Below are positions 1-59,673 of a DNA stretch of 64,000 bases, piece by piece. Numbering within the stretch: the first letter of the stretch is position 1; every line of letters begins with the position of its first letter. Position numbers and translations under genes: made by a program. Under the pieces are notes generated by a model. It did no database searches and was not told where the DNA came from. It worked only from the letters and a program-made list of their open reading frames with translations. This stretch comes from a virus: positions 1 to 64,000 of the IMG/VR virus record IMGVR_UViG_3300008735_000002. One strand, written 5' to 3'.

Positions 1-605
1 TCTTTCGGAATGCCGTCGGGTTTCGTGTGTTTCGTTTGGTCATCAAAGACCAAGTCACCCATTTCCACCCATGCATGAACGATAGGTTTCGGTGGCTTCT
101 CCCACTTGTCAGTTACCTTTCCATGCACAACCTTGAACTTACCCACGTTATTAAGATCCGGATGTCTTTTTGGCTTGCGACCAGGGCCGCCCTTCGTGAA
201 ATGATCGTCGAACCATTCTTCGGCTTTCTGAATTGCGAACGGAAAGCACATCCCTTGAGCTAGAACCTTCTGCTCGTGCAGCCCTTCTCGTAAACCCAAT
301 TCTCTCTCACGGTCTTCAACTTCTATTCTACCCATTTCTGCCCATTCTTTGGACGTTATGCCAATTTTGGCAAGCTCTCTATTAATGAGACTGGGACGGC
401 TCTGAGTAGACCCAACCGTGTCGTGAAGATATTTAGTTATTGAATTATTGTCCCATGGTAAGTCTTGAGGTTGAAGACCGAGACTGTCGGCTAGTTCCAT
501 TGCTTGCTTGATACCGTCAGGGCCTGAATCCATCAACTCTTTGAATTTATCATCGTACTCGGTGGATTCAATTAGAGCTCTTATGTATTCGCGGAGGAGG
601 TTCAT
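1..605 (-). CDS. Tagged papain-like Cys/His protein, 3' end outside the window
   Basis: The frame is open from an ATG at 605 to the left edge, about 201 residues, and its end lies outside. It starts with the tag MNLLREYIRALIE followed by S, the same N-terminal module as in the next genes. The C-terminal half has a Cys in QGMCFPFA, a His in VHAWVEMGD and an Asp in LVFDDQT. This C...H...D order with the HAWVE context resembles papain-like or NlpC-like phage proteins. The ribosome site AGGA lies about nine bases before the ATG, inside the gap after the previous gene. The role is inferred: a protein packaged with the DNA through its tag. The catalytic assignment is tentative because the protein is cut. 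Confidence 0.75.
   Translation of the reverse strand, partial: MNLLREYIRALIESTEYDDKFKELMDSGPDGIKQAMELADSLGLQPQDLPWDNNSITKYLHDTVGSTQSRPSLINRELAKIGITSKEWAEMGRIEVEDRERELGLREGLHEQKVLAQGMCFPFAIQKAEEWFDDHFTKGGPGRKPKRHPDLNNVGKFKVVHGKVTDKWEKPPKPIVHAWVEMGDLVFDDQTKHTKPDGIPK
577..605 (-). repeat. Dispersed DNA repeat coding the LREYIRELL tag
   Basis: The first 25-30 bases of many genes in this cassette are near-copies of each other at DNA level; read on the plus strand they share CTTATGTATTCGCGGAG or close variants. This is the reference copy. Others end at 1149, 1711, 2403, 3224, 3694 and 4274, and more diverged copies end at 7229 and 59673. The downstream payloads are unrelated, so the repeat looks like an exchangeable 5' module or the result of gene conversion, not gene duplication. 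Confidence 0.7.
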
Positions 606-606
606 T

Positions 607-1149
607 TCATAATCCTATAAAGATAACGTCACCAGACGACGTGTAGTCTCGAACTAATGATTTCCAAACGCGTTTGGCAGCTTCTGAGGTACCTGAACCT
701 ATTGTACAGTGATGTGCTCCGATAAACACTCCGCCATTTCTTTTTGCGTACTCGCTGGCTTTATCTATGAATGCCTTGTAGATTTCTTTACCGTGGCCTT
801 TGCCGCGATTATCTTCATCATGGATCCATGCGTTTGCTACATCATAGAATGGAGGCGCGAACGGAGTACTTTCACCGGTTTCTTTCATAACCCACTCCCC
901 ATTTTCATCTCGTACTATTTCTGTTCTTGGCTTGGCATTTTTCATCCATTTCTCTTCGGCTTCAAGATACTCAGGCGTTTGCTTGATTTTATCAACGTCA
1001 GCTTGACATGCTTTGAAGCGAAGATTGCGACTGCCTTGGGCGTATCCAATTCTTCCCAGTTCAACTCGGAAATAATGCTCATCTCCTTTGTAGCTAAGAG
1101 AAGGAGCCTCAGCTAGTAGCTCTCTTATGTACTCACGCAGAGGATTCAT
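607..1149 (-). CDS. Tagged GNAT-family acetyltransferase
   Basis: The 180-residue protein starts with the tag MNPLREYIRELLAE, then A. The C-terminal half carries a GNAT acetyl-CoA loop, RGKGHG at residues 115-120, followed by a helix and the segment SEAAKRVWKSLV typical of the fold's end. The GNAT family transfers an acetyl group to an amine; the substrate is unknown. The ATG at 1149 was chosen because the tag begins there; a GTG lies one codon upstream. The gene overlaps the previous one by 17 bases and ends one base before the next ATG. With the tag's L-x-E site, the inferred role is a head-packaged, injected modifier of host protein. Confidence 0.8.
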   Translation of the reverse strand: MNPLREYIRELLAEAPSLSYKGDEHYFRVELGRIGYAQGSRNLRFKACQADVDKIKQTPEYLEAEEKWMKNAKPRTEIVRDENGEWVMKETGESTPFAPPFYDVANAWIHDEDNRGKGHGKEIYKAFIDKASEYAKRNGGVFIGAHHCTIGSGTSEAAKRVWKSLVRDYTSSGDVIFIGL

Positions 1150-1711
1150 CACAGTCTCCCGCTTTTACCAGCTCTTCAATCCCTTTCTGATCCCAGATAC
1201 AGCCTGATGCTACATCCCAGCCGTAATACCAAAAAAAATCATCATCGTTTCGTTTGCTCGAAAGGTATGGACATATCTCTATTCCCGAATAGTGTTCAGC
1301 AACCTTCGGCCAGTCGATCATCTTATCGAGTCCCTTGGTACCGTCAGGATCAGCAGGGTGGTTTACACTATACATCTTATTGAATTTTTCAAGGTGTTGC
1401 TCGTCTGGGATATGGAGTATGTGGTAGCCATCATCTTTAAGAACGACATTGTAGGTGCTGTCATATTTGTCATAGCCACCCGTCAGTCCAACCGTACAAA
1501 ACTCTTCCCATGTCTCCGAACTTCCGTCTTGGCACTCATACCAGAGGCCTTTTGGCTTGGAGCCGATCTTCTGAGAAAATCCACTCACCTGCGGTTTGGT
1601 ACCTGAACGAGTACCTCCTCGAGAATGGTGGATCCTCATCTTGTCTTGCGCATAAATCGGGAAATGAGATTCATTAAGAATTTCTCTTATGTATTCGCGG
1701 AGTGGGTTCAT
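1133..1711 (-). CDS. Tagged protein of unknown function
   Basis: The protein has 192 residues from the ATG at 1711, where the tag MNPLREYIREILNE starts; it overlaps the previous stop as ATGA. A longer reading from 1768 would place the tag internally and is less likely. The body has RIHHSRGG near residue 27, KPKGLWYEC near 53 and WDVASGCIWD near the C-terminus. I recognise this pattern as recurring in uncharacterised phage and bacterial proteins. An ADP-ribosyltransferase-like fold is conceivable, as in T4 Alt, but I see no decisive catalytic motif. Its place in the cassette argues for an injected protein. Confidence 0.7.
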   Translation of the reverse strand: MNPLREYIREILNESHFPIYAQDKMRIHHSRGGTRSGTKPQVSGFSQKIGSKPKGLWYECQDGSSETWEEFCTVGLTGGYDKYDSTYNVVLKDDGYHILHIPDEQHLEKFNKMYSVNHPADPDGTKGLDKMIDWPKVAEHYSGIEICPYLSSKRNDDDFFWYYGWDVASGCIWDQKGIEELVKAGDCDESSA

Positions 1712-2403
1712 AGTTCTACCCATCGGCCCATGTGCTGGATAGCAGCTATATTGTCCGGACCTTTCCACCGGTACATCTTTGTCTGTGGACTTTTTAGAAG
1801 AACATCTTTACCGTACGGATCCCAAGGAGTCTCTTCATTGTCTTCATCCCAAAAAGTCCCACCCTTGATACCTCTTACATACGCCTGCTGTTGCGAGCAA
1901 TTATCATTGCTGTTGCCTGGGGTGAGGTGGTCTTCTAAATCGTCGAGCTGAACCGGTTCGACGTCTGCACGATTCGTAAAGTAATAATTCCATACCTTGT
2001 TAGCTTCATATGAAACGCTACCCCTGTCTGGTGTTAACCCACTCCCTTTACTTGTAGCAACCTCCATCGCCAAATCATAAAGAAGTGGACCCCAGCCGCT
2101 TTCGGAAACGCTTACCCAGGTAACAGTGTAAGCACCCAAACATTCTCCCATCTCATTGCCGGTGGCGATCGTAGCTGATATTAAGCCAAGAGCTTTATCC
2201 GGGAACTTAGACTCGGTCCCGGCGGGACTAGTTACCTGAGGTGTCCCTGGCTCAGAGCCTTGTGGATTGAAATCATATAACTTTATCTCGAATGCATCTC
2301 CATAGTCTTCTATGGCGATATAATAACCACGCTTCTCAAATTCAGATAGACCTTGAGCGGCTTCTATCAACAGCTCTCTTATGTATTCGCGGAGTAGGTT
2401 CAT
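1708..2403 (-). CDS. Tagged GNAT-like protein
   Basis: The 231-residue protein begins with MNLLREYIRELLIE, then A. The middle part, SESGWGPLLYDLAMEVA followed by LTPDRGSVSYEANKVW and an N-R-x-D-V segment, matches a GNAT-like domain common in phage accessory proteins, where GWGPLLYD takes the place of the usual acetyl-CoA loop. The C-terminal 60 residues look like a separate small module. Start and stop both overlap neighbours as ATGA, so translation is probably coupled. The acetyltransferase call is from pattern only; the substrate is unknown. Confidence 0.72.
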   Translation of the reverse strand: MNLLREYIRELLIEAAQGLSEFEKRGYYIAIEDYGDAFEIKLYDFNPQGSEPGTPQVTSPAGTESKFPDKALGLISATIATGNEMGECLGAYTVTWVSVSESGWGPLLYDLAMEVATSKGSGLTPDRGSVSYEANKVWNYYFTNRADVEPVQLDDLEDHLTPGNSNDNCSQQQAYVRGIKGGTFWDEDNEETPWDPYGKDVLLKSPQTKMYRWKGPDNIAAIQHMGRWVEL

Positions 2404-3224
2404 CCTGGGCTCCAGAGTTCATTACGGCCTCTATCAAAAATAGGGATGCCAAGCTCTGTGGCCAGCTTAAAGATTTTCCCTATAACACCAGGAGCGTTGA
2501 CTCCTGCATTATCTTTAAACTTCTTGTCGCTTAAGCTTTGAACGCTTAACTTTATTGGCTCTACCCACTTACCGACAACAATTCCTATAGGCTTCCAGTT
2601 ATCTACAAGCGCTTCGTTTGTTTCACCGGCGATGCCCTTGTGCCATGTGGATTGATCTAACACATACGGCATATTCCTCGCCATCTTCTCAGCAAACTCA
2701 TCTCCACGCTTAAGTTGCCCATAGCGGCTAAAATCTTTTGATACGTGTGGAAGCTTATTCACACCCGATGATTTCTGTCTCTGTTCTTGCTCCTCCTCCG
2801 TATAGTCTGCATGCGGACCTGTATAGTCTGGCCACTTTCCACTAAAGAGTTGATCATGATCATTTGCGGCAAGTGTAATCCTACCTTTCACCCACAATCC
2901 TATTAGCATACCTGGAGGGTTTTGGAGTTTATCACCTGGTAAAGTCATAGTAGTTGATAGCTCATCTTTGCTTTTTCCTACGAGATATTCAAGACTATAG
3001 GCATCCTCTACCCAGTGAACGGTGTCCAGAGTAGAAAGCCACTGATGATCTGCATTTGCATTGAACGCGCGCTTGATCGCTTTACCCCCGCCCTTACCAG
3101 GATCACCACCAAAGAACATCTCTCCAGGCTCGCCGAATTCTTCTGAGGCAGCTGCAAGATCATGGACAAAACCCATGGGGTCTTCTTTTAGAATTTCTTT
3201 TATGTATTCGCGGAGAAGTTTCAT
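2400..3224 (-). CDS. Tagged protein of unknown function
   Basis: The protein has 274 residues from the ATG at 3224, where the tag MKLLREYIKEILKE, then D, begins; a longer reading to 3290 only adds sequence overlapping the previous gene. It includes a glycine-rich stretch near residues 40-50 and the segments GLWVKGRITLAANDHDQ and NEALVDNWKPIGIVVG, which look like a conserved globular domain I cannot name. ATGA overlaps link it to both neighbours. Like the rest of the cassette it is a candidate head-packaged protein. Confidence 0.75.
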   Translation of the reverse strand: MKLLREYIKEILKEDPMGFVHDLAAASEEFGEPGEMFFGGDPGKGGGKAIKRAFNANADHQWLSTLDTVHWVEDAYSLEYLVGKSKDELSTTMTLPGDKLQNPPGMLIGLWVKGRITLAANDHDQLFSGKWPDYTGPHADYTEEEQEQRQKSSGVNKLPHVSKDFSRYGQLKRGDEFAEKMARNMPYVLDQSTWHKGIAGETNEALVDNWKPIGIVVGKWVEPIKLSVQSLSDKKFKDNAGVNAPGVIGKIFKLATELGIPIFDRGRNELWSPG

Positions 3225-3694
3225 TTTGGATCCCTCCACCACTCGCCGCCTCGCGCCCTGTTGGGTTTGAAGCCGGCTCTTTTGTACCAAGACTTAAGAT
3301 CTTTGACACCAAGCTTTTCTGACCCGAAGGGGTGAGGGTCGAGGGACATAGGAACCTGATGTTTATCTGCCAATGCCACCAACTGATTCATGACTTTTGA
3401 AGCGAATCCTTTTCCTTCGCAAAGGCCGGGAGGCACGGTATGGATCGATCCGAAATGAATGGCACCATCCCAGATCGAAATATTGGTCATGACAAGACAC
3501 CACGTTCCCTCGATTTCTTCCATGGGCCAGTATCTATCACCCCGAAAGCCAATAGGGTTTTCTTTAGACATCGACTCGTACTCAGACATAAAAGCATCAA
3601 ACTGTTTTTTCAATTCTGGGCTCGGGCCTCTTTGTATGTTGATGGCCGCCTCTTCAGCAAGGAGTGCTTTTATGTACTGACGTAGTAAATTCAT
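3221..3694 (-). CDS. Tagged GNAT-family acetyltransferase
   Basis: The protein has 157 residues. It opens with MNLLRQYIKALLAE, then E. The GNAT core is clear: a beta strand with IHFGSIHTVPPG, the acetyl-CoA loop CEGKGFASKV at residues 92-101, and the closing motif LKSWYKRAGF typical of GNAT enzymes. The ATG at 3694 was chosen because the tag starts there; the longer reading to 3712 begins in the previous gene's spacer. It shares an ATGA overlap with the next gene. The substrate is unknown; an injected acetyltransferase acting on a host protein is the inference. Confidence 0.82.
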   Translation of the reverse strand: MNLLRQYIKALLAEEAAINIQRGPSPELKKQFDAFMSEYESMSKENPIGFRGDRYWPMEEIEGTWCLVMTNISIWDGAIHFGSIHTVPPGLCEGKGFASKVMNQLVALADKHQVPMSLDPHPFGSEKLGVKDLKSWYKRAGFKPNRARGGEWWRDPK

Positions 3695-3695
3695 G

Positions 3696-4274
3696 CTAAG
3701 CAAAGCTCCCATAAATACGTTTGGTGACGATCGCAGAGGCCATTGCTAATTTTCTCTCGTAATAACAATCATCTAAAAATCTAATAAATTTTGGACCCAA
3801 AAATTCTTTTATCTTTTCCTCATCGCATACTGGTGGTACGCTAGAAGAACGTAAGATCTCTTCTATTTTCTCACCTGCCTCAATGAAGAATCCACCACCG
3901 TTTAGCAAGTCGAACATTTTGCCAACAAGCGCGCTCTTGGCTTCGCGTTTGCCCAGGCATCGCTCTTCCTGGCACGTTCCCAATAGTGCCATTTTATTTC
4001 CAAACGCAGTGGGTTTGTAAATGATGAATGCATCTGGAACTCCGTCGGGAGGAGTGTCGACATCAATCAAAAAGACACCCTTATACTTTTTGAGCCCGGC
4101 TGCGTTGGGCGCGCTCAAGTCCATGCCCAGGCTCAAGTAGGTGTTTGTGTACATGTCCCAAATCCGATCAAGCACATCAGCATCAAGTGATGCCAAGTCC
4201 GTATCCATCCATTGCATGCTAGGTAATGCTAATTCGATTAACAACTCTCTTATGTATTCACGGAACGGATTCAT
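3696..4274 (-). CDS. Tagged protein, possibly GNAT-like
   Basis: The 192-residue protein starts with MNPFREYIRELLIE, then L. The segment DAFIIYKPTAFGNKMALLGT, followed by KREAKSALVGKMFDLLN and GGGFFIEAGEKIEEIL, resembles a divergent GNAT-like domain seen in other phage proteins: strand, turn and a long helix, but without the standard Q/R-x-x-G-x-G/A loop. Its start overlaps the previous stop by one base (TAATG). The function remains uncertain; the tag and position are the firm facts. Confidence 0.7.
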   Translation of the reverse strand: MNPFREYIRELLIELALPSMQWMDTDLASLDADVLDRIWDMYTNTYLSLGMDLSAPNAAGLKKYKGVFLIDVDTPPDGVPDAFIIYKPTAFGNKMALLGTCQEERCLGKREAKSALVGKMFDLLNGGGFFIEAGEKIEEILRSSSVPPVCDEEKIKEFLGPKFIRFLDDCYYERKLAMASAIVTKRIYGSFA

Positions 4275-5452
4275 TAGAAATACTTGGCTCCGATAGTCTT
4301 GACCTCTGGATGCTCCTCTGCCATCTTATCTTTCAAGTGACCGATCTCTTTTCGCATCATCTTTCCAAAATTCACGTTATCTCCTGGCTGGGCGACTGTT
4401 TCATAAAACTGGTCCATCAGCTTGCTAGCGACCCCTTGTCCTGTGGAATCTCCTCGAGTCTTCATATAATCGATGTACCACATGGTATTACCATCGCCGG
4501 ACTTACCTTGACTGTGATAATCTAAAAACCCAATAACACAGACATCGCTGACTCCCGGCACGATTTCTTCAAGAACTGGCTTCTTTAATCGCTTCCCGCT
4601 CTTTGAGTGCTTTCGCCAGTTTTCCCATTCCTTAAAATAAGCGTCACGGTGCGCTGGGGGTTCGGTTACTGAGGAGTCACAATAAGCAATACGTTTAACG
4701 TTGCTCGCGCGACTGTAGGTAAGCGGAGAATCGACCTCACGAAACTCGACAGACTCGTTTAGAAGGTCCATCGCTTCCATCAGGCCCAATGATCTCAAGT
4801 ACTGGTGGACGTTATCTTTATCCGACTTTGCCATGCCCTTCTTGTCAAGAAGCATGCTCTTGCGACTTCCTTTATCCCACCTGTATTCATTGACTTCTAT
4901 CAAGAGGTTCCTGATATAAGAGCGTAAAATAGACTCCATAACTGGATCTTCGAGTTCACAAGGTGTATCAAGAGCCTCTGCAACGAAATGTGGGATCGCC
5001 TCTAAGCCCAGTCCCTCGATCGTCTTTACAAAAGCTTCTAAGTGATTTGCTCTATCGTCCCAAACTTGCACAACCTCTAGATCAGGCATACCTTCTATAA
5101 ACTGCTTCATCATAGATGATTTCCACGGCTCGGTTCCACCGCCGGGCTTCAAGTGGACTTCGTCAAAAGACAAGCCTGCGCCAGCTATCAGTTCTTCCAC
5201 TCGGGCCGACAATTCGGGTGAAGCACCCCGGCCAGTCATAAGAACAGTGTACACTTCAGGATTCCCTATACTCTCCATCGCAGCTGATACGGTGCTACTA
5301 ATCCACATCCCGCTTGGGTCAACAACACAGGGCGGAGTGAGAGACTGAAGCGTATCGTACCACGAACCAATGTGACCTTCCCAGTCATCCGGATGCATCG
5401 GGCTCATAAATAAAGTAGCATCAAAATCGAATATGTGTAATTCTCTAATCAT
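4274..5452 (-). CDS. HAD phosphatase-tag-GNAT fusion
   Basis: The protein has 392 residues in three parts. Residues 1-165 are a HAD-type domain with HIFDFDATLF (nucleophile Asp near 9), VLMTGRG (motif II Thr) and VWDDRANH; the pattern resembles the 'Swiss Army Knife' RNA-repair HAD branch. Residues 172-187 are an internal copy of the tag, MESILRSYIRNLLIE then V. The C-terminal part is a GNAT domain with STGQGVASKLMDQF. An ATG at 4939 begins exactly at the internal tag, so an internal translation start or proteolysis after LIE could release the GNAT part alone. It overlaps the upstream gene as ATGA. Confidence 0.82.
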   Translation of the reverse strand: MIRELHIFDFDATLFMSPMHPDDWEGHIGSWYDTLQSLTPPCVVDPSGMWISSTVSAAMESIGNPEVYTVLMTGRGASPELSARVEELIAGAGLSFDEVHLKPGGGTEPWKSSMMKQFIEGMPDLEVVQVWDDRANHLEAFVKTIEGLGLEAIPHFVAEALDTPCELEDPVMESILRSYIRNLLIEVNEYRWDKGSRKSMLLDKKGMAKSDKDNVHQYLRSLGLMEAMDLLNESVEFREVDSPLTYSRASNVKRIAYCDSSVTEPPAHRDAYFKEWENWRKHSKSGKRLKKPVLEEIVPGVSDVCVIGFLDYHSQGKSGDGNTMWYIDYMKTRGDSTGQGVASKLMDQFYETVAQPGDNVNFGKMMRKEIGHLKDKMAEEHPEVKTIGAKYF

Positions 5453-6261
5453 CGTGCTTCCGCCAAAAGTAATTCACGAACGTAAAGCCTGACGTATTCT
5501 TCATTCTTCGACCTTTCACCCGGAAGTGCCGAACCGTATTCTTCCTCGTACCATCCTATTTCATCAGGTAACTCTTCGACAGACTCATCAGCGCCCACTG
5601 CGCTGATCACAATCGGGTTAATAATTTCACCCACGCCAATCGGGAGCGGAGGAATTGGAATACCTGTAAGCGAGAAAAATGCCATCGGAATAATAAAGTT
5701 ATCGAGAGCCTCTCCCACAACTATCCCTATCGCAATCGGCAAACCCTTCTTCAGTCCTCCAGCCAAGCCTTCTGCCTCAACAGCATTCCAAATTGCATCT
5801 TTGGCTTTACCTAAAAGCTTTATAGGATTAACTTTTTCATTAGCAGTCTCTAAAGCAGCAATTACCATTTGCTCAGAAATCTGATCTTCAAATTCTATGA
5901 TCTGTCTTTCGACGGCTTCTTTTCGTGCTTCAGTAGGAAGATCATTACCATCCCATGTTTTTGCGTTATCCCAGCCCCACGTATACCCCAATGCATAGTC
6001 CGCGGAATCTGCGCTATGGCCGACCTGCTGAGGACTTGGGTCTTGCGCTGACCAGTCAGCACGACGCTCAAACCTTCCTTCAATCGCGCCATCCAAAAAT
6101 TCCACCATGTCTTCATTAACTTCACGCTCTAGAACATGCCGCACCAAGTTTGGAGCCAGCCGTGTAAACACATCATCCATCATATCATCATAATCGTGTG
6201 TCTCAACATAGTCAGTAACACTACTCATAAGCGATTGTTTTTCTAACAGAAGACTTCTCAT
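5449..6261 (-). CDS. Tagged protein with a hydrophobic domain and C-terminal tag copy
   Basis: The protein has 270 residues from the ATG at 6261, giving MRSLLLE then K; this ATG overlaps the previous stop by one base. A longer reading to 6330 lies entirely within the previous gene. Residues around 175-230 are strongly hydrophobic and rich in Gly, Ile and Pro, suggesting membrane insertion. The last residues, EEYVRLYVRELLLAEAR, are a copy of the tag placed at the C-terminus, with an LAE site two residues before the end. Function unknown. A membrane-active injected protein is one possibility, but this is speculative. Confidence 0.72.
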   Translation of the reverse strand: MRSLLLEKQSLMSSVTDYVETHDYDDMMDDVFTRLAPNLVRHVLEREVNEDMVEFLDGAIEGRFERRADWSAQDPSPQQVGHSADSADYALGYTWGWDNAKTWDGNDLPTEARKEAVERQIIEFEDQISEQMVIAALETANEKVNPIKLLGKAKDAIWNAVEAEGLAGGLKKGLPIAIGIVVGEALDNFIIPMAFFSLTGIPIPPLPIGVGEIINPIVISAVGADESVEELPDEIGWYEEEYGSALPGERSKNEEYVRLYVRELLLAEAR

Positions 6262-7229
6262 CAACCACCACCCAAAAGAATCTTCATGTGGTCTCCACCA
6301 CAAGCACCGGAGATTCCGCGGCAATACCACGCTTCATAATCAGGCCCATAACGATCTGCGTACTTGGCTTCAGGATGTTTACCAACCCAGTCCACAGTCT
6401 TCCCCAGCGCTGCCTCTACAGCTTCTTTTGTGGGTACTGCTGGTACTCCATAGCGGGTTATCATAATATGCGCAATCTTTCCAGACATTTCACCGATTCC
6501 GCCAGCTTTTAAGTCCTCAGCGGTTTCTTCAAGATATCGATCAATTGCAGCTTGAGTACCGTCATGGCCCACAATACCCAGCTTAAATCGACCACCGCGC
6601 ATTTTACCACCACGAAAGTAATCCGGCTCAGGGTCTTCATCTATGTCTGCGCCCTTCATGATTGTATATTTCCCTGGGAGATCTGCGGGAGATTGAACCT
6701 TTATATTGCCATATGTCGCGGAAGTTTCGCCGTCAGAGGGCGTGAGCATAACATCTTTATACGCATTCTGTATCAGGTCGAATATTTCGTCATCTAAATC
6801 ACGAACTTCAGGAGGAGCATCTTCAGCAAAGTCTTCAGGTGAAAGAGGAACCGTCTTACCCTTCGGGGCGCCAAGATCTGCCCACGTCTTTTCCAAAATT
6901 ACATCCCTTATGTGCGCGCGTAAATCAGCTTCTTGCATCCGCACGTTATACGTACGTAAAGCAGCACCTGGGTGGGGTGCCAACTGATCCATCGTCTTTT
7001 TTAGAACGTCGCCTTCATTCCAGGTAGGCCCAGAATTTGTGCACTTATACTCGACGGTCTTTCCTTGATCGTCAGGTAATTCTTCTATCGAAAGAACGAC
7101 ACCCTCGCTGCCTTTATGCTTACAATTCGGGTTTACATTAACAATCGATTCCCCGACAACGGGCTCGTCTGTGTGACTTTGAAAAGTCTCATGCAGTACA
7201 TCTCGAATATACTCTCTTAAAAGATCCAT
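6261..7229 (-). CDS. Doubly tagged protein with KOW-like and C-terminal domains
   Basis: The protein has 322 residues. It begins MDLLREYIRDVLHE then T, and a second tag, ADLRAHIRDVILE then K, sits near residues 100-112. Between them lies a small beta domain, VNVNPNCKHKGSEGVV to KKTMDQLAPH, that recurs in phage proteins and looks KOW/SH3-like. The part after the second tag has an alpha/beta domain with GGRFKLGIVGHDGTQAAIDRY and EAWYCRGISGACGGDHMK; I do not recognise it firmly. The two tags suggest a fusion of two formerly separate tagged proteins, or a polyprotein cut twice by the prohead protease. Confidence 0.75.
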   Translation of the reverse strand: MDLLREYIRDVLHETFQSHTDEPVVGESIVNVNPNCKHKGSEGVVLSIEELPDDQGKTVEYKCTNSGPTWNEGDVLKKTMDQLAPHPGAALRTYNVRMQEADLRAHIRDVILEKTWADLGAPKGKTVPLSPEDFAEDAPPEVRDLDDEIFDLIQNAYKDVMLTPSDGETSATYGNIKVQSPADLPGKYTIMKGADIDEDPEPDYFRGGKMRGGRFKLGIVGHDGTQAAIDRYLEETAEDLKAGGIGEMSGKIAHIMITRYGVPAVPTKEAVEAALGKTVDWVGKHPEAKYADRYGPDYEAWYCRGISGACGGDHMKILLGGG

Positions 7230-7233
7230 CCAC

Positions 7234-7980
7234 TTATCCCCACAATACTGACATAAGTATTTCGTGGAGACGATGTTTTATCCCTTCTTTGCAGGTTTCT
7301 GGCGTCGCAGCACCACCATTTGACACTCTATATGCTGATATCTTCACATCTGGGGAATATTGCTTACAAAGTTGAGCAACTGCTTTGACATTTCTTTCAC
7401 TATCATCGTAAAAAATTAACTCTTCGGGCTGGTGCTGATCTAAGTAACCGGATAGGACCGATGCTTTTCCTTGGGGCGTTTCGCCATCCATATCACCCAC
7501 TGTATGTAACTGATCAGGTGATATGCTGATTCCATTATCATTCAAAAACTGAATGATCTGTTCCCTGTTCTGGGGCGCAACGTTCGCACCCTGCGCGGGG
7601 CTAAACATCGCTTTTTCTCCAGCTCTAGCTGTTACCACTAGCGCGATGGACTCTGGGTCTGCTTGCGCTTCGGCAAGCTTCGACAACATTGACCCAATTC
7701 CCTTCGAAAGCTCCATATCTATAGACGCCGTCTCTGAATAGTCGATCTCATCTTCGGTCCCTTGTGGGGTCGGCAAATCTTCAAAGAGTGCAAAATTTGC
7801 AGAGTCTAACCACCAAAATCCCTGATCTTTTCTGACATATTGAATATTATTGTCTAGAAGAAAGTCTTCAAACCCGAGGTCTTCAGAACCATCAGGTAAA
7901 AGACGCCTAATACCGATCGTAGAAACGGTATGAGCCAATGTGTCATCAAAATCAAAGGCTATGATTCTCTTAATAGGCAT
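7234..7980 (-). CDS. HAD-superfamily hydrolase
   Basis: The 248-residue protein is a HAD phosphatase-type enzyme. Motif I is AFDFDDTLAH (nucleophile Asp10), motif II is ALVVTARAG and the acidic motif is IFYDDSERN. The catalytic residues are intact, so it is probably active on a phosphorylated small molecule or nucleic acid end; the substrate is unknown. It has no N-terminal tag, but its C-terminus, IKHRLHEILMSVLWG, looks like a degraded tag helix. It lies four bases from the tagged gene after it and probably shares its transcript. Confidence 0.82.
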   Translation of the reverse strand: MPIKRIIAFDFDDTLAHTVSTIGIRRLLPDGSEDLGFEDFLLDNNIQYVRKDQGFWWLDSANFALFEDLPTPQGTEDEIDYSETASIDMELSKGIGSMLSKLAEAQADPESIALVVTARAGEKAMFSPAQGANVAPQNREQIIQFLNDNGISISPDQLHTVGDMDGETPQGKASVLSGYLDQHQPEELIFYDDSERNVKAVAQLCKQYSPDVKISAYRVSNGGAATPETCKEGIKHRLHEILMSVLWG

Positions 7981-8990: not shown

Positions 8991-9334
8991 GGGGGTGTAA
9001 CGGCTTCGACAGGGTAACGAAGGAGTATAAGAGTGCAAGTGGTCTCACGAAACAGCAGACCTAAATCGCGGTTTCAAAAAGATAGTTGCAAATAACAACA
9101 ATCACTTCGAATACGCCTTAGCTGCGTAATTGGGTGGTTGCCTAAAACCATCTATCCAATTTAGGCTAAGTGAAGTAGCATCACTGAAATAAAAGAATGC
9201 TCGAATTTCATCTCCGCGGATGGAAGGGTTTAACAAGCGGAAATTTTGGGAGTTTAGAAAAACTTCCTAAACTTGTGAATGACTTGATCCCTGAATTTCT
9301 TTGGACGCGGGTTCGACTCCCGCCGCCTCCACCA
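8991..9334 (+). ncRNA. ssrA: tmRNA (ssrA), one-piece, phage-encoded
   Basis: The 344-base RNA has all the landmarks of tmRNA, which frees stalled ribosomes and tags the nascent chain for proteolysis. The 5' end GGGGGTG pairs with CGCCTCC before an encoded ACCA, giving a seven-pair acceptor stem whose third pair is G-U, the alanine identity element. The T arm GCGGGTTCGACTCCCGC is perfect. The conserved GGCTTCGACAGGG follows the 5' strand. The tag frame at 9088-9129 is preceded by TAGTT, like the E. coli TAGTC. It lies on the plus strand at the head of a small island, between divergent genes. Confidence 0.95.
9088..9129 (+). other. tmRNA tag-peptide reading frame
   Basis: The resume codon is GCA at 9088. 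The frame encodes ANNNNHFEYALAA and stops at TAA (9127-9129). The C-terminal ALAA is the standard ClpXP/ClpAP degron form. The added alanine from the charged tmRNA would precede this. Confidence 0.9.
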
Positions 9335-14605: not shown

Positions 14606-14930
14606 CTCCTTCCTTCGCTAAAACTAGCTCCTCTGGTAAGAAAAAATTAACATCGCCACCCGACTCTAAAACAGCCATAATTCTTACAGACGGGAAAGAA
14701 CCAGATATAAAATCCCCAACTTTCCCAAGCTCTTTAGACTCAGCATTGCCCAAACAAAGATAAACTTTCCCGTCATTTTCGTCAACAAGCAATGCATCCT
14801 CAACGATGGAGCTATAGATGACTATATCTCCAGCGGATAAAACGTTACCTGCCTCGTGAACGAGACTTTCGTCTTTTCTTAAGCTTCCTCTTTTTCGAGT
14901 ACGTTGTTTTTTTAATCGTTTTTTGGCCAT
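14592..14930 (-). CDS. Small protein with basic N-terminus
   Basis: The protein has 112 residues from the ATG at 14930. It starts with a basic stretch (MAKKRLKKQRTRKRG) like the gene ending at 13716, followed by an acidic beta-rich domain (AGDIVIYSSIVEDALLVDE). It overlaps the deformylase gene by 86 bases in another frame, which is unusually long for this genome, but the frame and ATG are clear. Function unknown. Confidence 0.6.
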   Translation of the reverse strand: MAKKRLKKQRTRKRGSLRKDESLVHEAGNVLSAGDIVIYSSIVEDALLVDENDGKVYLCLGNAESKELGKVGDFISGSFPSVRIMAVLESGGDVNFFLPEELVLAKEGDEQA

Positions 14931-15495
14931 CGTAAGACATCCGCAATTCCGCGTGATCTCTTTCAAAATCCGCGGCAGCTTCTTTTTCAATTCGCTCAAT
15001 TTCTTTACGAACTTTAGAGAGCTTCTTTTTCAGAATCTGACGCTTTAGTCTAGAAAGTCTATCTAAAAAAAGCTTACCGTCCAAATGATCCACCTCATGC
15101 TGGACGCAAGCAGATGAAAGACCCTCTAGTTCTAATTCACACTTCTCCCAATCTTCATTATAGAAGGTTATCTTACAATGTGAATATCGGGGCACGAAAC
15201 TAGAGACCTGAGGAATTGAAAAACACGCTTCTTCTGAAGCGTATATTTCTCCTGACATGTCGAGGGCTGGATTGATCATCACTAGCTGTTCTTCTTCTGA
15301 TATCTCAAGCAATGACGGATTGATAACTAGCGCTCGTTTCTCAATCCCGATTTGAGTTGCAGCTAGACCAAGACCTCCAGTCACAGTGAAAGAGTCTTTA
15401 AGATCTGCTACGACCTCCAAGCTGTCTTCTTTGCTGAGGTCGGTTGCTATATTTTTTAGCCTCTTATTAGGCCACGTAAGAACTTTCCGATACAC
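14845..15495 (-). CDS. def: Peptide deformylase with basic C-terminal extension
   Basis: Peptide deformylase removes the formyl group from new proteins. All three motifs are present: GLGLAATQ at 41-48, EACFS at 89-93 (usually EGCLS) and QHEVDHLDG at 132-140 with both zinc His and the catalytic Glu. After residue 145 comes a coiled-coil-like Lys/Glu segment and then a very basic tail (KKRKLKKRRKSRSRGR), about 70 extra residues, which could bind the ribosome. Phage deformylases are usually shorter than host ones. The start is GTG with AGGGGG five bases upstream. Confidence 0.92.
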   Translation of the reverse strand: MYRKVLTWPNKRLKNIATDLSKEDSLEVVADLKDSFTVTGGLGLAATQIGIEKRALVINPSLLEISEEEQLVMINPALDMSGEIYASEEACFSIPQVSSFVPRYSHCKITFYNEDWEKCELELEGLSSACVQHEVDHLDGKLFLDRLSRLKRQILKKKLSKVRKEIERIEKEAAADFERDHAELRMSYDGQKTIKKTTYSKKRKLKKRRKSRSRGR

Positions 15496-16370: not shown

Positions 16371-16648
16371 AACTGGATTCCCTCCTCTTCAATAATGTCT
16401 GCAATGCTTTCTTGGAACCGTGGATCTAGTGCAATCCTATCTACTTCATCTTTTGAAAGACCGTGCATCTCGCATATCGGCGCAGCTAGCTTTCGCATCC
16501 CAGATAGAAAGTAATTTCTTGCAGCTGAATGCTTCATAGGATAACCGTCATTCGTCATGATTTCTGCAATCTCACGATAACCTTTTCCGCCACGATCACC
16601 AACAGTTGCGTAACCATTGTCTGCCTTAAAGCCTTTGGGCATGCTCAT
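16367..16648 (-). CDS. Small HTH protein resembling sigma region 4.2
   Basis: The 93-residue protein contains, at residues 23-54, GYREIAEIMTNDG followed by MKHSAARNYFLSGMRKL. This matches the spacing of a sigma-70 region 4.2 helix-turn-helix, where T-x-x-E-I-A/G and R-x-x-x-I-x-x-x-A-L-x-K-L are typical. The upstream sigma gene lacks just this part, and the two genes overlap as ATGA, so they may make a split sigma factor or a gp55/gp33-like pair. GAGGTG precedes the ATG. The regulator role is inferred. Confidence 0.68.
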   Translation of the reverse strand: MSMPKGFKADNGYATVGDRGGKGYREIAEIMTNDGYPMKHSAARNYFLSGMRKLAAPICEMHGLSKDEVDRIALDPRFQESIADIIEEEGIQL

Positions 16649-17403
16649 TTAACACCTCGCTTCTTAAGTTCATTATATTCTTTTTTGTTAATAGGGAAAT
16701 TGACATGGTCTTCGACATCCTCTGTTAGGCCGAACCTAAGCCGAATGATCTTTTCTTCTCTAGACGAGAGATTCCGGAGCGACATGACCAGCGCTTCCCT
16801 AAGCACAACCTTGTCAAGGTCATCACCTGGATCTTTGTCATCTACCCCGCCAACAATCTCAGCGAATGTACGACTGCCGGGATCATCAGAAGAGATCGGC
16901 TTATCAAGAGAAATCTGGGGTGCTCCAGATTTTCGAATAGCCTTTAGAGTCTCAACAGGCACGCCAACAGCGGTTGCGACCTCTTGGGGGGTGGGCTCAC
17001 ATTTGAATTGTTCTAGATATTCTTCTCGAAATTTATACGCCTTATACATGACGGCACGAGCAGAAGTGGGCATCTTGATAGCGCCTGACTGACCTGCAAC
17101 ATGAGACTGAACGGCTTGACGAATCCACCAAACTGCATAGGTGCTAAACTTAAAGCCCTTCCGCCAATCGAAACGATCTACAGCACGAATCAAACCGATG
17201 TTCGACTCTTGGATAAGGTCTTCAAAAGAGCAACCCTTATCTCGAAAATTCTTTGCAATCGAAATTGCGAGCCGAAGATTCGCTTGAATCATACGGTCTC
17301 TTGCAGCATTGTCGCCGGCCTCAATAGCTTTCGCTAGCTCAACTTCTTCTGCGCGGGTGAGAAGGTTATGGTTACCAATTTCTTTGAAATAACTTTCTAG
17401 CAT
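16645..17403 (-). CDS. Sigma-70-family RNA polymerase sigma factor lacking region 4.2
   Basis: The protein has 252 residues. It shows a primary-sigma layout: region 1.2 (SYFKEIGNHNLLTRAEE), region 2 (ANLRLAISIAKNF, DLIQESNIGLIRAVDRFD, KFSTYAVWWIRQAV), region 3 and region 4.1 (LSSREEKIIRLRFGLTED). It then ends with a short basic tail, where the region 4.2 helix-turn-helix that binds the -35 element should follow. It would direct host RNA polymerase to phage promoters through -10 contacts. The start is ATG at 17403 with GGAG nine bases upstream. A perfect TATAAT lies 64 bases upstream. Confidence 0.92.
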   Translation of the reverse strand: MLESYFKEIGNHNLLTRAEEVELAKAIEAGDNAARDRMIQANLRLAISIAKNFRDKGCSFEDLIQESNIGLIRAVDRFDWRKGFKFSTYAVWWIRQAVQSHVAGQSGAIKMPTSARAVMYKAYKFREEYLEQFKCEPTPQEVATAVGVPVETLKAIRKSGAPQISLDKPISSDDPGSRTFAEIVGGVDDKDPGDDLDKVVLREALVMSLRNLSSREEKIIRLRFGLTEDVEDHVNFPINKKEYNELKKRGVK

Positions 17404-17466
17404 CAATTATGTCTCCAGGGATGAATGAAAGAATGAAGCGACATAACTGTCCCTACCATCTTTAAT

Positions 17467-17800: not shown

Positions 17801-19381
17801 TTATTCATCATCCCTGACCATTGCGCACCCAATCGATAACAAATTAATAGAAACACTCGACGCATTCTGGAGCGCTAATCGAGTAACCTTCGCAGGGTCT
17901 ACAATTCCAGTCTTCATGAGATTACAAACATCGCCATCAATTCCATTATATCCAAAATTCTTTGGTTTTTCAACAATCTTTTCTAGAATAACCTCAGGAA
18001 CTGACCCGCAATTAGAAGCAATCTGCTTAAGAGGTTCACATGCAGCGCTGAACAAAATCTTGTGACCAATCGAGAGAGAGTCTTTTTTATCAAGCTGCAA
18101 TTTAGCAACTTTTGCGAGCAGTGAACCTCCACCGGCTACGATCCCTTCTTGCATTGCTGCCTTCGTAGCATAGAGCGCATCTTCAACGCGGTCTTTTCTT
18201 TCGCTTATTTCAGCTTCAGTTGCTCCACCTACTCGTAAAATACCGATTCCGCTATTCATCCTCTTCACGCGGCGAGTTAAAACGCTAATCATTTCTGCAT
18301 CGCCTATGTACTCGTTCGCTGCTTCTTTTATCTGCTGAATACGGTCTTCCCTAGACTCGCTATCTCCTGTTGCGTCAATGAAGATGGTGCGGTATCTATA
18401 CGCTGCTATCTTCTTACAGGATCCCAAATCAGTGAGCTTCACATTTCGCCAGCTCGCGGGCTCACCCGTCAAGAGATCGGCTCCCAAAAGAATAGCTAAA
18501 TCATGGAGCGCTTCAAGACGAGAAGTCCCAAATTCTGGAGCAGCTAACACGCATGCCTTGATGAGGTTCTTTGTGTTGTTGAGAATAAGCCCCTGTAGCG
18601 CATCTCCCGTTGTCTCTGGGCCGATGATCACAAATGGTCTATTCTCACGTGCTGCTTCTTCCATAAAATGCATAATGTCGTGTATAGAGCTTATGCGTTG
18701 ATCAGTGACCAAAATTGCTGGATTGAAAAGTTCACAAGACATCCGAGCAGGTTTGTTCACAAAATATGGAGAAACATATCCTCTATCCAATTCACACCCG
18801 TCGACAACTTCAAGCGAAGAATCGAAACCCTTGGCTTCATCAACAGTTACTGTGCCATGATCCCCTACTGCCTTTATCGCCTCTACAATCAATTCAGCTA
18901 GATCTGGCTCATTATTAACAGAGATATTAGCGACCCTCCTTAAGTCTTCATCAGACTTTACAGGGACAGCGTTCTTTTCGATTTCATGGCAGAGAAGAGT
19001 TGTTGCCTCCCTTATACCGTCTCGAATCGCTCTTAATTCGTGCCCTCCAGCAAGAGCCTTCAACCCTTCTTGAAATATTGCGCAAGCCAAAACCGTCGCA
19101 GTTGTAGTTCCATCACCGGCTTCTTCTGCCGTACGCTGTGCAGCTTCTCTCACAATCTGAACGCCCAAATTTGCAAAACGATCTTTTAAATTGATGGCCC
19201 GAGCTACTGTCACCCCATCTTTGGTCAAGACAGGGGCGGAACCAGGGTGTTCAATCAAAACATTTTTCCCAGATGGGCCCATCGTTACACGGACAGCATC
19301 AGCCAATTGCTCAACACCGACCCTAACTAAATCTCGGGACTCTTCTGAAAATGTTATAACACGATTTTCTTGCTCAATCAT
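17801..19381 (-). CDS. groEL: GroEL-type chaperonin
   Basis: The 526-residue protein is a full group I chaperonin, an ATP-driven folding ring. Visible landmarks are TMGPSGKNVLI and TKDGVTVARAI, the ATP-site EEAGDGTTTATVL with its catalytic Asp, a complete apical domain and EGIVAGGGSLLAKV near the C-terminus. It is slightly shorter than E. coli GroEL (548) and lacks the GGM tail. No GroES gene was found here, so it may use the host's, or work without one as reported for phage EL. It overlaps the previous small gene as ATGA. Confidence 0.97.
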   Translation of the reverse strand: MIEQENRVITFSEESRDLVRVGVEQLADAVRVTMGPSGKNVLIEHPGSAPVLTKDGVTVARAINLKDRFANLGVQIVREAAQRTAEEAGDGTTTATVLACAIFQEGLKALAGGHELRAIRDGIREATTLLCHEIEKNAVPVKSDEDLRRVANISVNNEPDLAELIVEAIKAVGDHGTVTVDEAKGFDSSLEVVDGCELDRGYVSPYFVNKPARMSCELFNPAILVTDQRISSIHDIMHFMEEAARENRPFVIIGPETTGDALQGLILNNTKNLIKACVLAAPEFGTSRLEALHDLAILLGADLLTGEPASWRNVKLTDLGSCKKIAAYRYRTIFIDATGDSESREDRIQQIKEAANEYIGDAEMISVLTRRVKRMNSGIGILRVGGATEAEISERKDRVEDALYATKAAMQEGIVAGGGSLLAKVAKLQLDKKDSLSIGHKILFSAACEPLKQIASNCGSVPEVILEKIVEKPKNFGYNGIDGDVCNLMKTGIVDPAKVTRLALQNASSVSINLLSIGCAMVRDDE

Positions 19382-21938: not shown

Positions 21939-23153
21939 TCATATTGAAAGCAAATCGTTCTCAAGGCCGATGATCAATTCGGCATATTGCTTCCCAAGAG
22001 GGCCAGTTTTGGCCAATTCCGCTAATTCTTCACGAGTCATTTCAGCGACAAACCCAAGAAGCTGACCTACACTTTGCTCTTTGGCTTTCGTCACTACTTC
22101 TGCAAATGCAGCAGCAAGGACACCTTTGTCTACCAAAGCAAACCAATCTTCTTCTGCCGCGTTGGACGGCATAGACTTACCATCTGGCGTCTTTTTAAGA
22201 TCCTCGATCATCTTGTCTGCTTCTTCGCCGCCCTTCTTAAGAATATCCTTCTGTTCTTGGGCAGCTTTTTCCACCTCTTTAGCTTGCTCAGTCAGATCAA
22301 TACCGCCCTGAGCAACTTTCGGTATCAATGTAGCTAGTTCTTCAAAGCTCTCCACTTTCGCAACAGCGTTTAAAGACTCAATCAACTCTATCCGCTGCTT
22401 TTTGACCTCTTCAACTTCAGCCTTCTTCTGAGTGAGTATACTCTCTGCGTAACCCTTAATGTGGCCACCTGCGCCAGAATCCTCGAGCCATTTGTCTATT
22501 TCTTCTTGAACTTCGCCTTCGGCCGCAGGCTTTTCCTCCTCTTCTTCACCCTCACGAAGGATTCTTTCAAGGTCATCAATCTCATCTAAGCCCTCGGTGG
22601 TATGACCAAAGAACAATTTCTTCATATCATCTAAAATTCCTCGAATAGGACCCTTGTCATCCTGCGCTTTTTGCGCTGGCTCATATCCCATCGCAGCGCC
22701 AATAGGACCTAGCTTACTAGCGATAAATTCTGTAACGGGCTCCGCGGTGTTTTTCACTTCTGTTGCAAGACCAGCACCGAGATAAGCTCCCGGGTTCATC
22801 ATGAACATAATCAATTGAGCGTCAGGAGATGATAAGGCTGCTTTGGAAGATTCCAGAGCTTTTGACATCTCGCTCTTGTACTTGTCACGGTCCTGACGAA
22901 ATTTTCCCAGCAGCTCTTGTTGCTTCTTGGTATCAAACGTTAAAGCAGATTCGATTGTTGTAAGGGTCGCTGAAGCTACATCCTTCACAGCGACCTGCGC
23001 TACTTTGAAAACATCCACAAATGGACCAATAAATGCCTTGTAAAATTGATCCGCAGAGGGTGGAACAATATCTCCAAATGTCACACCAAAAGTCTGCTCA
23101 TTTAGAATCTTTCTGATTTCATTTCTAATAAAAATTTCGTCTAACTCTTCCAT
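21939..23153 (-). CDS. Probable virion-interior protein with L-x-E sites
   Basis: The protein has 404 residues. Its N-terminus, MEELDEIFIRNEIRKILNE then Q, is a looser version of the tag with an LNE site, and DLERILREGEEEEEK gives an LRE site near residue 205 followed by an acidic linker. The body is Ala/Glu/Lys-rich and largely helical. It lies in the block of similar acidic proteins and is likely a core or internal head protein cut by the prohead protease. The ATG at 23153 overlaps the previous stop by one base; GAGGGG precedes it. Confidence 0.7.
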   Translation of the reverse strand: MEELDEIFIRNEIRKILNEQTFGVTFGDIVPPSADQFYKAFIGPFVDVFKVAQVAVKDVASATLTTIESALTFDTKKQQELLGKFRQDRDKYKSEMSKALESSKAALSSPDAQLIMFMMNPGAYLGAGLATEVKNTAEPVTEFIASKLGPIGAAMGYEPAQKAQDDKGPIRGILDDMKKLFFGHTTEGLDEIDDLERILREGEEEEEKPAAEGEVQEEIDKWLEDSGAGGHIKGYAESILTQKKAEVEEVKKQRIELIESLNAVAKVESFEELATLIPKVAQGGIDLTEQAKEVEKAAQEQKDILKKGGEEADKMIEDLKKTPDGKSMPSNAAEEDWFALVDKGVLAAAFAEVVTKAKEQSVGQLLGFVAEMTREELAELAKTGPLGKQYAELIIGLENDLLSI

Positions 23154-23386
23154 CAATATCGCCCCTCTATCAATGCCACACCAGTTGCAGAATAATAACT
23201 ATCCAGCAACCTCTCCTCAAATTTATTTAACTGCTGCTTTTTTGTCTTAGGGTCTCTTACAGAAAATTTTGAGCGCGATTCCGAAGGTAAAGTACAAAGC
23301 AGCATTTTTTTCAAATCAATCCAACTGTTTATAAAAAGCATCGGCCCTAGCTGAATGGCTTGTTGCGTTATTTCTTTCTCTGTCAT
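23153..23386 (-). CDS. Small protein of unknown function
   Basis: The 77-residue protein is helical and basic in its middle (ESRSKFSVRDPKTKKQQLNKFEERLL). It overlaps both neighbours by one to four bases and so is cotranslated with virion-type proteins. Not recognised. Confidence 0.6.
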   Translation of the reverse strand: MTEKEITQQAIQLGPMLFINSWIDLKKMLLCTLPSESRSKFSVRDPKTKKQQLNKFEERLLDSYYSATGVALIEGRY

Positions 23387-26121: not shown

Positions 26122-27165
26122 CTATTCATCGCTAGCTAAAGCTGTTATAACACCTTGCACTTTCTTTCCATGAGGTAGACCATCAAAATATGCGACTGCT
26201 CGATCATAGAGCCCTGGCTCCAGTTGATCGAGGTCTTCCTCTGCAATGCCCTGACTCGTAGCATCTCTTAACATTTTCTTATAAACGTTATTTAGAAATG
26301 TGTCCCACATAAATGTTCTCAACGCGGGCCACGCATTGATTTCTGGATTTGATCCATACTCTGAATTAAATGCAGCGGCGTCGTCTTGATCGATCAAGTC
26401 TAAGTCGAGCATTGTATCCATCATAAATTTCAAAGCAACGCCCTTTAACTTATCTATTTCCCCAGGAAACGTCTCCATTGATAACCGCATTTTTTTCAGA
26501 GCTTCACCCTCAATTTTTTTGACACCGCTTACACTAAGTCCCATGTCTTGTGCAACATCTTCGAGAGTTGCTTCATCTCCTCTTTGCCACTCGCCAGTGC
26601 GGGTGTCTCCAGACGCTATAGCACGCAGCTCTTCGTCTGTTGGCTCTCCGTACTCACCCTCTTCGTCTTCATCGTAGTGGACACCGAGCTTAAAATCATC
26701 CCAACCTTCTGCCAAAAGCGACATTAGCAGTTGGTTCCTAATAATCGCTCTTGCCTCTTGGACTTCTTCTGGTTCATTCATACCAGCTTGATCAACCACT
26801 TCTACACTGACACGCTCATGATCATCAACAAACTTCTTAAATTTCTCGTATGTCTTTTCAACGACATCCGCTTCATCGGGAAGACGTTGCGCAAGAGTGT
26901 ATAGAGATCGAGCAAGCTGTTGATTATTTATGGGTGTATATTCGGGATCATCAACCGGCGGCTCATCCTCGCTTAACTGGGTAGCCATCTGCGGTTGTGG
27001 GTTGATAGGCATATCCAACGGATCATCTTCTTCAGGACCGTCATCGGGCCACTGAGTACCTGCACGATCTCCGTCTGCCCATGACGAATTACTGTACTCT
27101 GGGTACGTGTCTTCAAAGAGCAATCTTCTTGCTTCTTTTCTAAAATTATTAAAGTTCGCTTTCAT
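26122..27165 (-). CDS. Tagged virion-type protein with a sigma region 4-like HTH
   Basis: The protein has 347 residues from the ATG at 27165, preceded by GAGGTGG. It begins MKANFNNFRKEARRLLFE then D, a helical leader with an LFE site, followed by an acidic Pro-rich linker. At residues 200-228, TLEDVAQDMGLSVSGVKKIE and EALKKMRL closely match the sigma-70 region 4.2 helix-turn-helix. The C-terminal 110 residues are helical. The combination suggests a DNA-binding protein packaged in the head, perhaps an injected transcription factor or a DNA-organising core protein. Confidence 0.72.
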   Translation of the reverse strand: MKANFNNFRKEARRLLFEDTYPEYSNSSWADGDRAGTQWPDDGPEEDDPLDMPINPQPQMATQLSEDEPPVDDPEYTPINNQQLARSLYTLAQRLPDEADVVEKTYEKFKKFVDDHERVSVEVVDQAGMNEPEEVQEARAIIRNQLLMSLLAEGWDDFKLGVHYDEDEEGEYGEPTDEELRAIASGDTRTGEWQRGDEATLEDVAQDMGLSVSGVKKIEGEALKKMRLSMETFPGEIDKLKGVALKFMMDTMLDLDLIDQDDAAAFNSEYGSNPEINAWPALRTFMWDTFLNNVYKKMLRDATSQGIAEEDLDQLEPGLYDRAVAYFDGLPHGKKVQGVITALASDE

Positions 27166-27182
27166 TGCAACCACCTCATCTA

Positions 27183-59424: not shown

Positions 59425-59673
59425 TTATTTTTTAGCTATTTTTGCGCCGCCAAAAGCTGAAGCGTTTGCCTTCTCGGCATCCTTACGCCTTTTCCTTCTT
59501 TCTCCAGAAGGACCGCGACCTAAGGGAACCATAGGCCCCGGGACGCCACCAGAACTTTGCTCATCATGGTGGCTCTCATCATCATCTTCCCTCTCATCCT
59601 CTGCACTTAGATCAGGTTCACCCAGAACTTCTTCTTCAATCAAGAGTCGTATGTATTCCCGAAGGCTATCCAT
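59425..59673 (-). CDS. Small tagged protein outside the main cassette
   Basis: The 82-residue protein starts MDSLREYIRLLIE then E, a clear copy of the tag found 52 kb away, coded by a related DNA repeat. The rest is an acidic stretch (DLSAEDEREDDDES), a Gly/Pro linker and a basic tail ending GGAKIAKK. It has the look of a small packaged DNA-associated protein, comparable in style to T4 internal proteins. It lies between the DnaQ-type gene and ssb. Confidence 0.74.
   Translation of the reverse strand: MDSLREYIRLLIEEEVLGEPDLSAEDEREDDDESHHDEQSSGGVPGPMVPLGRGPSGERRKRRKDAEKANASAFGGAKIAKK

Follow-up and report, generated by a model that had tools for sequence, protein, structure and literature searches.

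Positions 1 to 7229 of a 64,000-base window (the whole stretch of viral DNA analyzed here, bases 1 to 64000 of the 119,015-base IMG/VR viral record IMGVR_UViG_3300008735_000002, hereafter G000, which comes from an uncultured T4-like giant phage) carry eight minus-strand genes that begin with the same short peptide, M-x-x-LREYIRELL-x-E, and otherwise encode dissimilar proteins. These N-terminal tags are very probably capsid-targeting propeptides, processed by a gp21-type prohead protease, on proteins that are packaged in the phage head. With somewhat less confidence, we also consider it likely that most of the proteins behind the tags (the payloads) act as injected effectors. What argues for this at the sequence level is a common tag, an L/I-x-E motif (LxE) at a fixed place in it, a protease and a head module in the same genome, payload junctions at LxE, and an LxE site in the capsid protein. 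The remainder of the record was read too; it is probably a fragment of a larger genome, because related contigs reach 293 kb.

Detection of the tag

The cassette runs on the minus strand from position 7229 down to the contig edge, and its genes mostly overlap or abut by a few bases. The tag start codons lie at 605, 1149, 1711, 2403, 3224, 3694, 4274, and 7229; in three genes, the tag methionine is located downstream of the start of the longest open reading frame (ORF) (1768, 3290, and 3712). Scored with a position matrix of the tag, the eight copies reach 33.8 to 40.8 bits, against 17.5 bits for the best shuffled ORF (n = 2,735). As the matrix was derived from these same tags, stronger evidence comes from a blind test for N-termini common to proteins that are otherwise nonhomologous, with internal windows as controls. 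Across the record, this test returned 18 pairs, all of them among exactly those eight tagged proteins, and the internal-window controls returned 0. Applied to T4 as a positive control, it returned exactly IPII and IPIII. AlphaFold models the tag as a low-confidence helix preceding a folded domain.

A preliminary description of the window had proposed the eight tagged genes, an internal tag in the gene at 4274-5452, and a C-terminal tag in the gene at 5449-6261. All eight were recovered by both the matrix and the blind test, and the two displaced tags were found as well: the internal one scores 21.5 bits, and the C-terminal one scores 11.5 bits, which is weak alone, although a 69% identical relative has an internal tag at the aligned position. 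The proposal that the payloads diverge completely is essentially right, as an all-against-all comparison of the cassette payloads in the window gave no similarity. Beyond these elements, we found a ninth N-terminal tag, at 59673, as well as a second tag within 6261-7229 and LxE junctions that lack the helix in both 1-605 and 4274-5452. The tagged genes and their elements are as follows (class 1 denotes the tag of this cassette).

1-605 (minus): protein of two modules, the first marked by EYDxxFxxLMDSG and the second by conserved GxC(F/Y)P.. and HxWVExGD; the second resembles a Cys peptidase by eye only
567-605 (minus): tag MNLLREYIRALIE, N-terminus of the ORF at 1-605, which runs off the contig end
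273-284 (minus): helix-less LxE junction GLHE, preceding the QKVLAQGMCFPFA module, which in relatives sits behind an N-terminal tag
607-1149 (minus): tagged gene, tag MNPLREYIRELLAE at 1108-1149; GNAT-like by eye; payload kin at G010 1951-2493 (65%) and G014 221025-222182
1133-1711 (minus): tagged gene with MNPLREYIREILNE at 1670-1711; its payload hits phrog_8582, a family of unknown function, at 2.3e-15
1708-2403 (minus): tagged gene, tag MNLLREYIRELLIE at 2362-2403; GNAT-like predicted fold; the most expanded payload family
2400-3224 (minus): tagged gene with MKLLREYIKEILKE at 3183-3224; payload DPMGFVHDLAAA..., predicted fold closest to the CteC mono-ADP-ribosyltransferase
3221-3694 (minus): tagged gene, tag MNLLRQYIKALLAE at 3653-3694
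3696-4274 (minus): tagged gene, tag MNPFREYIRELLIE at 4233-4274
4274-5452 (minus): putative polyprotein with HAD_SAK_1 (Pfam, 2.6e-13), the internal tag, a small module, an LLNE junction, and a GNAT-like domain (weak Pfam match)
4895-4933 (minus): internal tag SILRSYIRNLLIE within 4274-5452
4754-4774 (minus): helix-less junction AMDLLNE before SVEFREVDSPL, a module that is N-terminally tagged in G010, G011, and G002
5449-6261 (minus): gene with an MRSLLLE start and a C-terminal tag at its end; the homologous tag is internal in G002 and leads into another module
5458-5502 (minus): C-terminal tag EEYVRLYVRELLLAE
6261-7229 (minus): tagged protein of two modules, with MDLLREYIRDVLHE as its N-terminal tag (7188-7229); the modules occur separately in relatives
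6891-6929 (minus): second, internal tag ADLRAHIRDVILE within 6261-7229
59425-59673 (minus): small class 1 tagged gene, MDSLREYIRLLIEEE, outside the cassette, with tagged counterparts in relatives

LxE position and payload junctions

The tag had been described as ending in the T4 gp21 motif L/I-x-E, and the position of this motif proved to be fixed. Of the 59 class 1 tags, 44 have an [LIV]xE that ends at residue 14 (54 of 59 with the 10 that end at residue 15), as do 87 of the 93 tags of a second class found in relatives (see below), compared with 2% of other ORFs. Payload homology begins right after the glutamate of the tag, for N-terminal and internal tags alike; the DPMGFVHDLAAA payload, for example, is N-terminally tagged in the window and in G016 but lies behind an internal tag in G010 and G014.

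We mapped junctions by locating the starts of payloads that follow N-terminal tags inside larger proteins. The motif is kept at every mapped junction: [LIVMF]xE was present within one residue in 17 of 17 internal junctions (background, 7.7%), including 10 of 10 with no detectable tag helix, with the limits that the 17 stem from fewer independent payload families, that formal P values overstate independence, and that one junction may really be N-terminal, in an ORF that was called too long. Where the window has the C-terminal tag (5458-5502), the 69% identical relative has, in the alignment, an internal tag followed by a further module; a payload was lost or gained exactly there.

Prohead protease and head module

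The preliminary description had made its reading depend on a gp21-like protease elsewhere in the genome, and a gp21-type prohead protease is present at G000:93721-94341 (7e-52 against phrog_207, the family that T4 gp21 matches at 2.8e-79). Along with it, the record encodes a T4-type gp23-type capsid protein, a portal, and a terminase, and the order of the head genes is the same as in T4 (20-67-68-21-22-23). An alignment with T4 gp23 shows L-[RK]-E to be invariant in the capsid proteins of all aligned relatives at the position where the T4 protein is cut (FLTE|A). The gene at the gp22 position (G000:89750-91240) contains many LxE sites and has no PHROG family match.

Instead of targeting the capsid, the tag could be a helix that docks onto some other phage structure or onto a host machine (a membrane, the replication compartment, or a host protease or polymerase), with LxE incidental. 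The helix is amphipathic, its binding partner is only predicted here, and a long distance separates the cassette from the head genes of the record, all of which would suit such a role. A docking helix would not be expected, however, to carry LxE at the same residue in two tag classes that differ in sequence, to leave LxE at junctions that lack the helix, or to share its motif with the capsid site. In addition, class 2-like tags begin a head-module gene located between the protease and scaffold genes (G014 81574 and G000 92745). We therefore regard docking elsewhere as very unlikely.

As a separate observation on this protease family, the gp21 match is split by ∼1 kb inside one long frame in G004:88442-90055, G025:52177-53874, and LR756508 156480-158198 (573, 556, and 576 amino acids), which makes these sequences candidates for an intein or a similar insertion in the prohead protease.

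Conservation of the tag at the DNA level

Synonymous codons within the tag are near random, or near the expectation from codon usage, between copies both within and between genomes, which suggests that the peptide is kept by selection at the protein level and not by recent copying. The exception is the mid-tag Ile-Arg pair (codons 7 and 8), where a stop codon in the +1 frame (TAA or TGA) occurs in 74 of 91 tags, compared with ∼17 expected, and in 46 of the 49 tags whose overlapping upstream gene reads that frame. This codon seems to provide the upstream gene with a second stop. An octamer, TACATAAG, seemed at one stage to be a conserved promoter or regulatory motif, but it reduces to the +1-frame stop, and no general upstream element was found.

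The conservation of this stop beyond what the protein needs is what might favor a DNA-level origin of the common N-terminus, either as an element for recombination or translation or as a remnant of recent duplication with fast-diverging gene bodies. Recent duplication is ruled out by the near-random synonymous codons; furthermore, the payloads have unrelated folds, the tag also occurs internally and at protein ends, and the +1 stop, which fits the termination of an overlapping gene, accounts for neither the helix nor LxE. Taken together, these explanations seem to us extremely improbable.

Payloads

The preliminary description had named GNAT, HAD, and papain-like domains among the payloads. 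The first two were borne out by Pfam and Foldseek; the third was not, as the supposed papain-like protein has a C/H/D-like pattern by eye only and no family match. In Foldseek searches, seven of the top eight hits for the payload at 1708-2403 were GNAT-family enzymes (the eighth was the Elp123 complex), and the seven best hits for the payload at 2400-3224 were all the CteC mono-ADP-ribosyltransferase. As the absolute scores are weak (best E values, 0.028 and 0.003; TM, ∼0.3) and the models moderate (pLDDT, 73 and 68), we used only the agreement among top hits, which points to GNAT-like and ADP-ribosyltransferase-like as the closest predicted folds. The latter payload was absent from the preliminary description. 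By eye only, further payloads may be ADP-ribosyltransferases (RG..SWS..E patterns, e.g., G016 151080 and G002 234546).

Relatives add a DUF192-PolyA_pol-GNAT-like-PAP2 polyprotein (G010), another HAD payload, and a weak match to RNA 2′-phosphotransferase. The payload families are mostly unmatched in Pfam, PHROGs, NCBIfam, and PADLOC; tblastn with two payloads against 50,697 phage records, T4 included, gave no match, and sequence searches of the PDB with payloads gave nothing or chance matches.

Could the tagged proteins be parts of the prohead core or scaffold, packaged and cut but structural, as T4 gp67 is or as the assembly role of IPIII would suggest? T4 IPIII affects head assembly, T4 internal proteins copurify with the gp22 core (PMC9026906), and a related tag stands on a head-module gene in this lineage. 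Assembly parts would not be expected, however, to be as diverse and enzyme-like as these payloads or to be replaced between relatives, and we consider a purely structural role unlikely. Payloads of the types seen here (ADP-ribosyltransferase-like, as in T4 Alt, GNAT, and HAD) are compatible with injected effectors, which may counter host defenses or reprogram the host.

Tag classes and scale in related contigs

A degenerate DNA search for tag starts matched 38 stretches in viral contigs, with at most six tags per stretch, and 11 relatives were read as whole or near-whole contigs. The class 1 cassette is present in seven nonredundant relatives (G002, G006, G010, G011, G014, G016, and G018); across related contigs of 84 to 293 kb, the cassette is shared and its payloads are reshuffled. 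G006 has its own dialect of class 1, MKxLRQYIRKILLTE, in a run of ∼18 genes.

A second, larger class, MKITKRQLRRIIKE(EKAKLLxE), forms arrays on 16 to 26 small genes per genome in G010 (loci L124-L138), G014 (L184-L198), G006 (L199-L212), and G011 (L144-L158). It is an addition seen in the larger of the related contigs that carry the cassette, and no class 2 array was found in the window's own record. Counting both classes, together with a few proteins from small other classes, the blind test returned 33 proteins in G010, 40 in G014, 45 in G006, and 29 in G011. At the level of the gene set, the large, modular arsenal proposed for the window is thus larger and more modular in relatives than could be seen from the window.

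Among cultured phages, Flavobacterium phage immuto (MW353176, loci L258-L266) has at least three sets of N-termini common to unrelated proteins, MENFDLKKFLVENKLTxNSKLL, MKKQILSEQFKRMQKLAGIITES, and MKKSQLRxIIRxEL; the tag MENFDLKKFLVENKL.. was also noted there.

Neighboring genes

Immediately upstream of the cassette is an untagged gene:

7234-7980 (minus): HAD-like by eye, with a promoter-like ATAGTTA ∼12 nucleotides (nt) before its start

The motif ATA[TCG]TTA occurs ∼10 to 45 nt before the starts of many structural and other genes and is a candidate late promoter. Examples on the minus strand of G000 are the genes at 69548, 77016, 76484, 89750, 8023, and 7234, which include genes just upstream of the cassette. 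A phage-encoded tmRNA gene with the tag peptide ANNNNHFEYALAA is located just upstream of the cassette operon (8991-9334, plus strand). By eye, the minus-strand genes at 14845-15495, 16645-17406, and 17801-19381 resemble a peptide deformylase, a sigma-70-type factor, and a GroEL-like chaperonin, respectively. Four further minus-strand genes (60582-61091, 21939-23156, 26122-27174, and 27678-28673) begin with other helices ending in LxE, e.g., MNEQQIRQIIQQVLTE, ..RRLLFE, and ..EIKTVLLE, and are possible additional head proteins.

Comparison with known systems

The few internal proteins of T4, which include an antirestriction protein and an ADP-ribosyltransferase, are textbook examples of phage-injected proteins. 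The tag, protease, and cleavage motif that mark the T4 capsid-targeting system at the level of sequence all have counterparts here. For IPII and IPIII, both the capsid-targeting function and cleavage at L/I-x-E are established (PMC9026906 and PMC3012670). The present system resembles that of IPI, IPII, IPIII, and Alt in having a short N-terminal propeptide-like sequence ending in L/I-x-E on unrelated proteins, a gp21-family protease, and the same head gene order. The CteC-like fold at 2400-3224 parallels the injected ADP-ribosyltransferase Alt, which is also C-terminally processed (PMC9026906). T4, however, has four such proteins, with a 10-residue tag on IPII and IPIII, whereas the tags here have 14 residues, fall into two classes, and mark ∼30 to 45 genes in the large relatives, arranged in long arrays whose genes overlap; internal tags and polyprotein fusions occur as well.

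The giant phages SPN3US and phiKZ likewise pack many proteins with their DNA, among them ejection proteins that their own prohead proteases cut as the head matures (PMC5694885, PMC7411985, and PMC10052503). The present system has instead a gp21-family protease, L/I-x-E as its motif, and a gene array marked by one common peptide, and is not of the phiKZ type. The P1 head proteins DarA/Hdf and the polyvalent proteins of phages and conjugative elements are also delivered with DNA, are in some cases cut during head assembly, and carry enzymatic and antidefense domains (PMC5512222 and PMC12810830). They are defined by their own domain sets, whereas here a common, putatively cleavable tag joins unrelated domains; the defining polyvalent-protein domain set (Iyer et al.) was not found in the window, and multidomain fusions occur in G010. 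A T4-type head is shared with the moraphages, for which no tag is mentioned in the accessible part of the report (PMC12619734). We found no account of the tag strings or of such arrays in a literature search whose scope left out most subscription papers and bioRxiv preprints.

Several points weigh against packaged, cleaved, and injected proteins as the explanation. Packaging, cleavage, and injection are steps that we infer. The compared contigs belong to one lineage (G001, G011, and G017 are near copies), so the counts are not independent. Relatives encode untagged members of at least one payload family, and the CCA-adding-like PolyA_pol, DUF192, and PAP2 payloads are not obvious effectors. 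In the blind test, G005 and G009 (contigs of 115 to 140 kb), which have gp21 and the same capsid gene, yielded no such tag set, and neither did the cultured phages Mel-JY01 and RM378; the protease alone is therefore no predictor of the tag set.

Independent proteomic evidence in favor, with caveats of its own, comes from a comparison with cultured Synechococcus phage S-CREM2 (OR473000, loci L283, L284, and L285-L293), drawn from the accessible part of its virion proteome report. That proteome lists packaged nonstructural proteins, for which the authors leave contamination possible (PMC10665884). A pattern that describes the T4 peptide, though written after part of these sequences had been seen, matches 5 of 27 nonstructural or unknown virion proteins and 2 of 172 undetected ORFs, neither of the latter near residue 10 (P = 0.0006 by Fisher's test). 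The five matches, all detected by mass spectrometry, are a SAM hydrolase, a Cas9-like nuclease, a kinase, and a cytidylyltransferase, i.e., all four packaged regulatory or DNA metabolism enzymes, and one hypothetical protein. A tag common to packaged proteins speaks against contamination. S-CREM2 resembles the present system in its packaged enzymes with a common N-terminal F-L/M-x-E tag and in its gp21-family protease, and it differs in the tag itself (MKxFxSFLTE), in the number of genes (about five), and in the payloads. The accessible part of the report makes no mention of the tag (PMC10665884).

A possible export label for injected enzymes

If the tags are propeptides of packaged proteins, the 14-residue amphipathic helix M-x-x-L-R-E-Y-I-R-E-L-L-x-E would attach to the scaffolding core while the prohead grows and bring the payload inside, and the gp21-type protease would cut after the terminal L/I-x-E, freeing the mature payload. 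The payload would remain in the head with the DNA and be injected at the next infection. Fusions with internal tags or bare LxE junctions would be polyproteins, split into separate enzymes by this protease within the prohead, and the gain, loss, and reordering of payloads would happen at the tag boundary. Relative to the T4 system, the new aspects are the scale, two tag classes per genome, internal and C-terminal tags with polyproteins, and the exchange of payloads at the predicted cleavage site. We lean toward a broader reading, in which the capsid-targeting propeptide serves as a general export label in one lineage of T4-like giant phages, with ∼30 to 45 proteins per virion, two classes, many polyproteins, and payloads swapped at the tag boundary.

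If this is true, each infection would deliver dozens of enzymes together, and some phages would inject about 10 times as many proteins as T4, including polyproteins processed in the capsid. Short tags could then help to predict injected proteins from sequence in phages with a gp21-type protease generally, cultured ones included; the S-CREM2 tag offers a testable rule for cultured cyanophages, and the idea can be checked against data from cultured phages. As nearly all payloads belong to no known family, they may be a source of new antidefense or takeover enzymes.

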